Of a stretch of 64,000 nt of DNA, positions 24,181 to 26,534 are shown one piece after another. The position numbers were made by a program, and so were the translations under genes. Location: positions 8,031,001 to 8,095,000 of the forward strand of contig NC_019678.1 of the NCBI RefSeq assembly GCF_000316665.1, read 5' to 3'. Below the pieces are notes generated by a model, which saw nothing but the letters and a program-made list of their open reading frames with translations, was not told the origin of the DNA and searched no databases. Source of the stretch: Rivularia sp. PCC 7116 (GTDB lineage: Bacteria; Cyanobacteriota; Cyanobacteriia; Cyanobacteriales; Nostocaceae). Within the stretch, counting starts at the first letter, position 1, and each line of letters starts with the position of its first letter.

Positions 24181-24351
24181 GTGGATATAGTAAACGAGTC
24201 TCAGAAAAACCTAGCCGAAGAATTACTAGAACAATTGATGCTATTTAAACGCTTCAAACACCTTGATGATGAAACATTAAAGAAGATAATGAACAACCCA
24301 GAACTAGCCAAGGAATTCGAGAAAGTTAACAGCGACAACCTCGCCGCTTAG
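24181..24351 (+). CDS. Small hypothetical protein, convergent with and overlapping the serine recombinase
   Basis: A 56-codon frame opens with GTG at 24181 and reads as a charged, helical peptide (SQKNLAEELLEQLMLFKRFK, then DDETLKKIMNNPELAKEF). The composition is protein-like, with strong Leu/Glu/Lys heptads. Its last 48 bases overlap the 3' end of the recombinase gene on the other strand. Small accessory proteins (XisH, XisI) assist the fdxN-element recombinase XisF in Anabaena, but this peptide does not look like either. It may be a helper or an unrelated gene. Confidence 0.45.
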   Translation: MDIVNESQKNLAEELLEQLMLFKRFKHLDDETLKKIMNNPELAKEFEKVNSDNLAA

Positions 24352-25683
24352 TATTGTTACTGACTTGATAAATTTCTTATATAACTTGATTTTTACCGAC
24401 TCTTTCATATTTTTATAAAGTCTGCTGTCGGAGAATAAATCAACAAATTCTTTTACTTGTTCTGCTCGAAAAACAATAGTATCGCTACTATGTTTTTGAA
24501 ACTCTACAATCTGCAATTTTATTTTCACTATTGCCTCCTCAATCGCTGCATTGGTAGGCAGTTTCTGTAAATTTCCTAACGTATTTCTTAGTTCTAATAC
24601 TTCCGCTGTTTCTGTCTCTTCTAGGGACTGACTATTAACAATTAAATCTTTTAATGCAACTGCTTTTTCTGTAAGCGCTTTATCTACAGTTTCAATAACC
24701 GTTGCAAGGTGAATTGTTTTCTTATTCTTACAAAAATCCGAACCATACATTCCCCGTTTTTTGCAGTAAATAGGCGTATATGGTTTGCTATGAGCATACA
24801 TCTTCCCCCCACAATCTCCGCAAAACATTTGTCCAGAAAGTAAGCCTTTACCAACTTTACTTGTATTTCCATTTCTTCCCCATCTACGACTATTTTCAGC
24901 CAATAAAGCTAATATTTGTTCGTAAGTTTCATGGGTTATTAAAGGTTCGTGAGTATTATACCTAATATCCCAGTTTTCAGGATTATTACGATTTGCTCTC
25001 ACACCGTACCTTGTATGTCCCCGCAAAGTTGGATTGTGCAACCAGTTTGTTAATCCAGTAGTAGAAAACTTAATATCATACTCTTTTAAAAAATATTGAA
25101 TTGTAGCGCGAATAGATTTTTTTTTATCCAATAAGTAATTAATAATATCCTTTGCAATTGCCCATTTAGTTTTAGTTGATTTATCGGGCAGTTGATGCAT
25201 GGATAAATCTGGTTGATAAAATCCATCGACTCTTTTATAACCAAATGGAACTGGTGGAGAAGCTTTACCTTGCTCGCGAAGATGTTTAAAGCCATGCTTA
25301 ACTCGGTTCTGAATTAAATCTAATTCAAACTCTGCTAATGCTCCCATTTGATTCAAAGAAAACTTAGTAAAGGGATTCTCTAAATCATCAACGGGTGAAT
25401 CTAAAATAATTAATTTAATACTTAATTCATTAAATAAAGCTACTGCCTTATTGATAGTAACAATTGAACGAGCTAATCTATCAATTCTGGTAATAACTAT
25501 TTCGGTAATATCTCCATTGCGACAAGCATCTAAAAGTTTGTTAAATTCTGTTCTATCATTAGACCTACCAGACTTCACATCTGAGAAAATCATTGAAACA
25601 CCAGCTTTCTTGATGCGTTCCGTTTGCTGGACTAACGCTTCTTCTTGTTCTCCCGTACTTACCCGCACGTAGCCGACACGCAT
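24304..25683 (-). CDS. Large serine recombinase of the XisF type, nifH-element excisase candidate
   Basis: The protein has 459 residues. The N-terminal resolvase domain (1-~150) has the catalytic Ser9 in YVRVSTGEQ, plus TRIDRLARS with the active-site arginines. A recombinase domain at ~155-270 (PFGYKR...WLHNPTLRGHTRYG) and a zinc ribbon at ~285-325 (MFCGDCGGKMYAHSKPYTPI then YCKK...DFCKNK) follow, then a helical end. These enzymes cut and rejoin DNA at specific sites. It starts only ~70 bp after the point where NifH loses homology and is on the same strand. That placement at an element edge beside an interrupted nif gene matches XisF of the Anabaena fdxN element. The most likely role is excision of a nifH element in heterocysts. 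Confidence 0.9.
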   Translation of the reverse strand: MRVGYVRVSTGEQEEALVQQTERIKKAGVSMIFSDVKSGRSNDRTEFNKLLDACRNGDITEIVITRIDRLARSIVTINKAVALFNELSIKLIILDSPVDDLENPFTKFSLNQMGALAEFELDLIQNRVKHGFKHLREQGKASPPVPFGYKRVDGFYQPDLSMHQLPDKSTKTKWAIAKDIINYLLDKKKSIRATIQYFLKEYDIKFSTTGLTNWLHNPTLRGHTRYGVRANRNNPENWDIRYNTHEPLITHETYEQILALLAENSRRWGRNGNTSKVGKGLLSGQMFCGDCGGKMYAHSKPYTPIYCKKRGMYGSDFCKNKKTIHLATVIETVDKALTEKAVALKDLIVNSQSLEETETAEVLELRNTLGNLQKLPTNAAIEEAIVKIKLQIVEFQKHSSDTIVFRAEQVKEFVDLFSDSRLYKNMKESVKIKLYKKFIKSVTILSGEVVAVNFLEFLG

Positions 25684-25703
25684 ACGCCTAAAACGCTCTT
25701 ATA

Positions 25704-26534
25704 TCACGACTTTAAAGAGCATATCACAAAAGTTAGCGTTGTAAGTTCATTTGGTGTAGGAATAGCTAGATTCTTGTTGTTGATGATTTTAGTCGCTAAG
25801 GTAGCGTATTCCTTAGCTTGGTTGCTGTCAGGTGCGTACTCGTTAACAGTCATACGACGCAATTCAGCGTGCTGTACAATGTTGTCGCGAGGTACGAAGT
25901 GAATCATTTGGGTGTTCAAACGGTCAGCCAAAGTTTCGATAAGTTCAACTTCTCTGTCAACATTACGGCTGTTACAAATCAAACCACCTAATCTTACTCC
26001 ACCACTGTGAGCGTACTTGAGTACACCACGAGCGATGTTGTTGGCTGCGTACATTGCCATCATCTCACCAGAGGTAACAATGTAGATTTCTTGTGCTTTT
26101 CCTTCGCGGATAGGCATAGCAAATCCACCACATACAACGTCACCTAATACGTCGTAAGATACAAAATCTAAGTCTTGGTAAGCGCCATTTTCTTCCAAGA
26201 AGTTAATGGAGGTGATAATACCACGACCTGCACAACCTACACCAGGCTCAGGACCACCAGATTCTACGCAGCGAACGCCGCGAAAACCTTCGAGCATTAC
26301 TTCTTCAAGTTCCAAATCTTCTACTGCACCGCGCTCGGCAGCCAACGAGAGTACGGTTGTTTGTGCTTTGGAGTGCAACATCAAACGGGTGGAATCTGCC
26401 TTTGGATCGCAACCTACGATCATAATTCTTTGTCCCATCTCAGCCATAGCTGCAAGAGTATTCTGAGATGTGGTGGACTTACCGATACCACCTTTACCGT
26501 AGAACGCTATCTGTCTGATATTTTCGTCAGTCAT
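25704..26534 (-). CDS. nifH: Nitrogenase iron protein NifH, 5' part, 3' end missing
   Basis: The frame has 276 codons, of which the first 261 are NifH. Present are the P-loop [13 protein letters not shown], the 4Fe-4S ligand cysteines in [14 protein letters not shown] and [12 protein letters not shown], and all of the ATPase core. Homology stops after [10 protein letters not shown] (about 25752); the last 15 codons are unrelated to NifH. Cyanobacterial NifH proteins are about 295 residues, so ~34 C-terminal residues are absent. The start is supported by ggag 9 bases upstream. As last gene of nifB-fdxN-nifS-nifU-nifH it should be followed by nifDK, but the serine recombinase follows instead. 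I infer that an element interrupts nifH. Confidence 0.95.
25735..25760 (-). other. Probable nifH-element junction
   Basis: On the minus strand NifH codons end at the Pro of AIPTP (about 25752) and the following sequence encodes unrelated residues. The pentamer tattc, which is the direct repeat of the Anabaena fdxN element cut by XisF, occurs within the Ile-Pro codons here. The exact crossover cannot be set without the other end of the element. Confidence 0.5.

Follow-up and report, generated by a model that had tools for sequence, protein, structure and literature searches.

A predicted 62-kb excision element in the split nifH gene of Rivularia sp. PCC 7116, with a XisF-type recombinase and a candidate directionality gene

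The nifH gene is in two pieces that join in frame

In the heterocyst-forming cyanobacterium Rivularia sp. PCC 7116, nifH loses its homology to other NifH proteins before its 3′ end and a recombinase gene follows closely on the same strand, which raises the question of whether this nifH is lost for good or can be restored by excision of the intervening DNA. We addressed this in a 64000-nucleotide stretch, referred to as the window (C1:8031001-8095000), and in the whole genome (8,728,773 bp in three contigs). The features at the break are as follows:

25753..26534 (-): nifH 5′ piece, codons 1-261 (TIGR01287 nifH, 452.7 bits)
24304..25683 (-): xis, XisF-type large serine recombinase of 459 aa, on the same strand as nifH
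25753..25757 (-): core ACACC at the 5′ junction (attL), with its partner at C1:7994806-7994802, outside the window
1..25757 (no strand): in-window part of the 61.95 kb nifH element, the rest being C1:7994806-8031000

The truncated nifH ORF (25704-26534, minus strand) encodes 276 aa, and both the ORF and an alignment with NifH bear out the initial annotation in that homology ends at codon 261 (..AIPTP) and is followed by 15 foreign codons and a stop. Also borne out was the absence of the nifH 3′ end, nifD and nifK beyond the break, none of which was detected by tblastn with NifH, D, K, E, N and U over window positions 1-24304. It had been proposed that some 34 missing codons be sought upstream of nifD; the missing end is indeed found directly upstream of nifD, 62 kb away (approximately C1:7994806-7994693, minus strand), but it comprises 36 codons. 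The two junction cores are 61,951 bp apart, and nifH joined at ACACC encodes 297 aa in frame, the 3′ piece resuming the protein at the homologous codon.

No intact second nifH was found in the genome, where the only other strong NifH-like match is 36% identical, lies next to a nitrogenase-like family protein and is probably a chlorophyll enzyme, a name that we infer. A nitrogenase-family search of the genome returned a single nifDK set, which is split. With no intact copy found and a single split nifDK set, a decayed duplicate of nifH could be ruled out. The initial annotation had named two outcomes that would overturn its reading, namely an intact nifH or nifHDK elsewhere and a missing end that does not exist, and neither of these was encountered.

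The same break occurs in Plectonema cf. radiosum LEGE 06105: its nifH is split at this very codon, the neighbouring recombinase is 71% identical and the element is 19,818 bp long. This shared break and the in-frame 3′ continuation place the interruption beyond chance. Relative to Plectonema, dN/dS was 0.07 over 119 codons of the nifH 5′ piece, 0.12 for the recombinase and 0.087 for the 3′ piece, the last value depending on just 37 codons. The Plectonema nifH itself lies in four pieces (L052 1236-1388, 5671-5946 and 13940-14329; L053 14100-14243), of which the second (codons 48-139) is inverted, so that, provided the draft contig is correctly assembled, restoring the gene would call for an inversion followed by deletion.

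The XisF-type recombinase and the proposed excision

The start codon of xis lies 20 bp past the truncated nifH stop and approximately 70 bp past the end of homology. A score of 494.8 bits against NCBIfam NF041201 recomb_XisF (cut-off 375) confirms the XisF-type assignment made earlier and places the protein in that family. It carries the Pfam domains Resolvase, Recombinase and Zn_ribbon_recom, and its VRVST and DRLARS stretches, which we take to hold the catalytic residues, align with a DNA invertase and with gamma-delta resolvase. Of the 388 genomes sampled from the order, 36 have a match above the XisF cut-off and eight, this genome included, a match to xis at E 1e-100 or better. Recombinases with 42-43% identity occur in six genomes of one genus, beside a nifH piece starting near codon 47. 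Separately, among the nifH matches listed from the 388 genomes, approximately 33 (counted by eye) lie in open frames no longer than 155-169 aa, a length that would fit frequent cutting of nifH near codon 135.

The locus has two features expected of a heterocyst element, namely a gene whose two pieces share a direct repeat and can be joined there in frame, and a recombinase inside the element, near one end. Because the missing end was found, the join is in frame, no second intact nifH was found and the pieces are under purifying selection, we are highly confident that the sole nifH found in this organism is interrupted by an excisable 62-kb element, the excision being a prediction. The earlier proposal of a nifH element with a XisF-type recombinase is accordingly supported by the missing end, the NF041201 score and the lack of an intact copy. 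Against it we count a core of just 5 bp, an attP dyad (described below) that is non-significant in two of eight elements, and the absence of xisH and xisI; neither of these genes was found in the nifH element, and the genome has matches to them at 5.34, 6.47 and 6.59 Mb of C1, away from the 7.99-8.06 Mb region. In the proposed reaction, the recombinase would pair both element ends and exchange strands at ACACC, with CC as the central bases suggested by the dyad; a circle would be released and nifH left whole directly in front of nifD. This step would be expected to take place in heterocysts.

The assembly holds the interrupted form only, as it would if nifH were permanently broken by an insertion that no longer leaves; we nevertheless consider such a dead insertion quite improbable, given the purifying selection against Plectonema on both nifH pieces and on the recombinase, and given that this break joins in frame, as do the other six nif breaks. 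Less probable still, to the point of being hardly credible, is that misassembly has set the nifH ends apart, for although our search covered one assembly of the strain and seven oppositely oriented cases are treated as misassembly in PMC4874684, the break carries a recombinase and a core bordered by dyad arms, and is found again in the independent Plectonema assembly.

The attachment sites

The core TATTC, which the initial annotation had suggested testing, did not hold up: it is present on the gene side only, 3 bp before the 5′ junction, with no copy at the 3′ junction, and the core common to both junctions is ACACC. No exact repeat of at least 9 bp is common to the two 400-bp junction regions. 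Next to the core lies:

25736..25752 (-): attL arm on the element side, AAATGAACTTACAACGC, which pairs as an inverted copy with the attR arm GCCTTGTTTGCTCA (10/14 positions complementary at the core centre)

The predicted circle joint therefore reads GCCTTGTTTGCTCA-ACACC-AAATGAACTTACAACGC, with arms that are inverted copies (10/14) centred between core bases 4 and 5. The same dyad centre is found in relatives, with 12/14 in Plectonema and 9/14 in a coxA element with core TCACT; in this latter genome (G381), a 55% identical recombinase interrupts coxA, whose two pieces lie on different contigs and join in frame. P values for the dyad, calculated with wider arms and for the best of several centres, were 0.006 for nifH here, 0.0003 for Plectonema, 0.001 for coxA, 0/20,000 for nifK, 0.0001 for a nifJ element (G353) and 0.0098 for one nifH-150 element (G261); the dyad was not significant for nifD-800 (P 0.15) or a second nifH-150 element (G336; P 0.42). 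As P was 0.01 or less in just six of the eight sites, a dyad attP was rejected as a rule for all serine elements. The ten attR bases beside the core are identical between this strain and Plectonema, and element DNA at least 30 bases out is 10-40% identical.

The nifH element is a well-resolved case, in which core, arms and the likely crossover centre can be read. The nifH and coxA elements have related recombinases and similar arms but different cores, and this bears on how elements move between heterocyst genes.

Relation to known elements

A survey of 38 heterocyst formers described 101 elements, of which nifH holds 19, falling into six variants; their recombinases comprise 48 of the serine and 52 of the tyrosine class, and every one of the 22 interrupted ortholog groups has at least one serine-type element (PMC4874684). 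For Rivularia sp. PCC 7116, it reports four nifD elements (positions 227, 895 and 1353 are named), a paralogue of EF-G in the 1353 element, and related tyrosine recombinases of nifB and hupS (PMC4874684). The genome examined here has four nifD breaks at matching places and, in the matching element, an EF-G-like ORF (C1:7967233-7969320, identified by eye), as well as two more tyrosine recombinases 58% like that of nifB. Since the strain is in that survey, our nifH element is probably already among those tabulated by Hilton, Meeks and Zehr in 2016 (PMC4874684); the open-access literature searched yielded no further paper on a nifH element of Rivularia. It shares with their nifH elements a split nifH, an element-borne recombinase, a short direct repeat and in-frame restoration, and it probably does not differ from them; 23 recombinase genes in the survey likewise stand at the element start on the gene's strand (PMC4874684). 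The element is of a known, documented kind, and the main finding is therefore ordinary for the field; what is added is limited to some detail on the att sites and a single gene candidate. As far as our literature search shows, what is new is the circle-joint dyad on the core, the similar arms of the coxA element with TCACT, the Plectonema nifH site and the convergent ORF described below.

Three other systems are comparable. In Anabaena sp. 90, excision elements likewise split nifH within one nif operon, one of them measuring 80 kb; the cuts there fall after 153 and 426 bp, with recombinases on the opposite strand (PMC3542288), whereas the cut here is near 780. The fdxN element of Anabaena 7120 (PMC4874684) has a recombinase of the same family, the NF041201 cut-off being passed here, but it needs xisH/xisI, whereas the present element interrupts nifH, has the core ACACC and is without xisH/xisI. 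The nifH1 element of Nodularia spumigena also interrupts nifH at a short repeat (8 bp), but has a tyrosine-type XisG, a length of 5.2 kb and another site (PMC3610870).

Other breaks in the nif cluster

The nif genes have seven breaks, in nifB, nifH, nifD (four times) and nifK, all of which (7/7) join in frame in our reconstruction. Upstream of nifH, the window contains the following:

32794..32998 (-): nifB 5′ piece, ending at the repeat ACTATGCAAGAA; a separate nifB element of approximately 1.8 kb follows
31291..32685 (-): tyrosine-type recombinase of the nifB element (PHROG integrase, E 7.7e-14; Pfam Phage_integrase 21.7 bits, below cut-off)
29670..30938 (-): nifB 3′ piece (start approximate)
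26727..29444 (-): the uninterrupted genes fdxN, nifS and nifU, located between nifB and nifH (nifU by tblastn; fdxN and nifS by eye)

The nifB and nifD-227 recombinases match a PHROG tyrosine integrase family, and those of nifD-895 and nifD-1353 resemble them (43-47%). The nifH, nifD-800 and nifK recombinases score over the XisF cut-off, with a fourth XisF-type match at C1:7846122. In operon order, the first three recombinases (nifB, nifH and nifD-227) follow immediately after the 5′ piece and share its strand; the remaining four are at the far element end, on the opposite strand. Upstream of nifB (window 33789-35183, minus strand) is a second tyrosine-type recombinase, likewise 58% like that of nifB.

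That the nifB and nifH recombinases differ in class, as the initial annotation had stated, proved correct, the nifB protein being tyrosine-type by PHROG (with Pfam below cut-off) and the nifH protein serine-type; one cluster therefore uses two recombinase classes. This is not new. Anabaena XisA and XisF belong to different recombinase classes. In that organism, XisA acts in nifD and XisF in fdxN (PMC4874684).

A small convergent ORF at the 3′ end of xis

Opposite the end of xis, we noted one further candidate gene:

24181..24351 (+): small ORF of 56 aa (GTG start) that converges on xis and overlaps its 3′ end by 48 bp

Judged from sequence, this ORF may encode a directionality factor for xis. 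A similar ORF is found at the equivalent position in the nifH-780 element of Plectonema (69%) and the G381 coxA element (36%), in six nifH-150 loci of one genus at the recombinase 3′ end, and in the Plectonema nifH-150 element, where the match (33%, E 0.58) was accepted on position. In all ten loci examined with a recombinase at least approximately 42% identical, a convergent ORF of approximately 50 aa overlaps the recombinase 3′ end, the boundary of this clade (nifH-780, nifH-150 and coxA) having been drawn after the result was known and 33 of 35 input loci having yielded a recombinase. Its presence in all XisF relatives was not borne out, as clear likeness was confined to this clade: none was found at the nifD-800 or nifK recombinases of this strain, nor at the Plectonema recombinase of the nifD end. 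The ORFs at two other loci (L102 and L109) are alike and unlike the small ORF here, and open frames there also arise by chance.

A profile built from six such small ORFs and searched in the 388 genomes matched in 14, of which nine matches were strong (eight profile rows or near copies and one new) and five had E values of 0.001-0.003. The only independent strong relative (G353:C80:5163-5276, E 2.3e-10) lies in a 36.5 kb nifJ element (L142 4980-5500 and L141, G353:C80), approximately 100 bp in from its left end; the small ORF there has a tandem paralogue, and the far end of the element carries a XisF-type recombinase. A XisF-type recombinase just past the next nifJ piece suggests a second break in this nifJ. 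No Pfam, NCBIfam or PHROG model gave an E value below 0.02 for the four small ORFs tested. An AlphaFold model of the small protein has three helices (mean pLDDT 73, pTM 0.47).

The dN/dS of the small ORF was 0.32 over 47 codons (P 0.013) and 0.28 outside the overlap (31 codons, P 0.06). The synonymous excess is weak in those 31 codons and absent in a nifH-150 pair, which is too similar, and the region is 87% identical between this strain and Plectonema, all of which would also suit conserved DNA, for example a recombinase binding site or a terminator, with no gene. We hold this to be a real possibility, if not the favoured one, since similarity at the protein level is kept to the coxA-element copy (36%) and the nifJ-element copy (41%), and the latter has a tandem paralogue and lies away from any recombinase 3′ end. 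If the ORF is a gene, the direction of XisF-type excision without xisH/xisI would become directly testable.

Proposed timing of excision

Being 20 bp behind the truncated nifH on the same strand, xis would be transcribed with the nif operon and hence timed by it. Because of this short spacing, co-transcription of truncated nifH and xis is likely on sequence grounds. A scan of 25500-26700 gave matches resembling promoters and terminators, all of them on the plus strand. In Anabaena variabilis, the nifB1 promoter is reported to be the one on which the nif1 cluster mainly relies, nifH1 having none (PMC4284476). No statement of a coupling between operon and excision was found in the titles and abstract openings of the open-access literature searched.

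We offer a tentative and rather doubtful scheme of three parts: that the 56-aa ORF founds an undescribed family directing XisF-type recombinases in elements without xisH/xisI; that recombinase and sites form a portable module, with similar arms and exchangeable cores (ACACC/TCACT), that is re-targeted between heterocyst genes; and that xis is the next cistron of a broken nif operon, whose activation would lead to excision and so place the nif promoter in front of the first nifD element's recombinase, which has the same orientation, as in a relay.

Other genes carried by the element

On excision, the heterocyst chromosome would lose PQQ-type and cyanobactin-type genes. The PQQ-type set (window 8580-13481, minus strand) comprises, by Pfam, a PqqC-type protein, a PqqB-type metallo-hydrolase, a radical SAM/SPASM protein and a glucose/sorbosone dehydrogenase, with a PqqA-like ORF (11918-12109) and a PqqD-like ORF (9740-10036) recognized by eye. 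The cyanobactin-like genes (C1:8022126-8032297, including window 1-1297) encode, by Pfam, a YcaO protein and a PatG-type protease with an oxidase domain, and a subtilase-like ORF was seen among them by eye.
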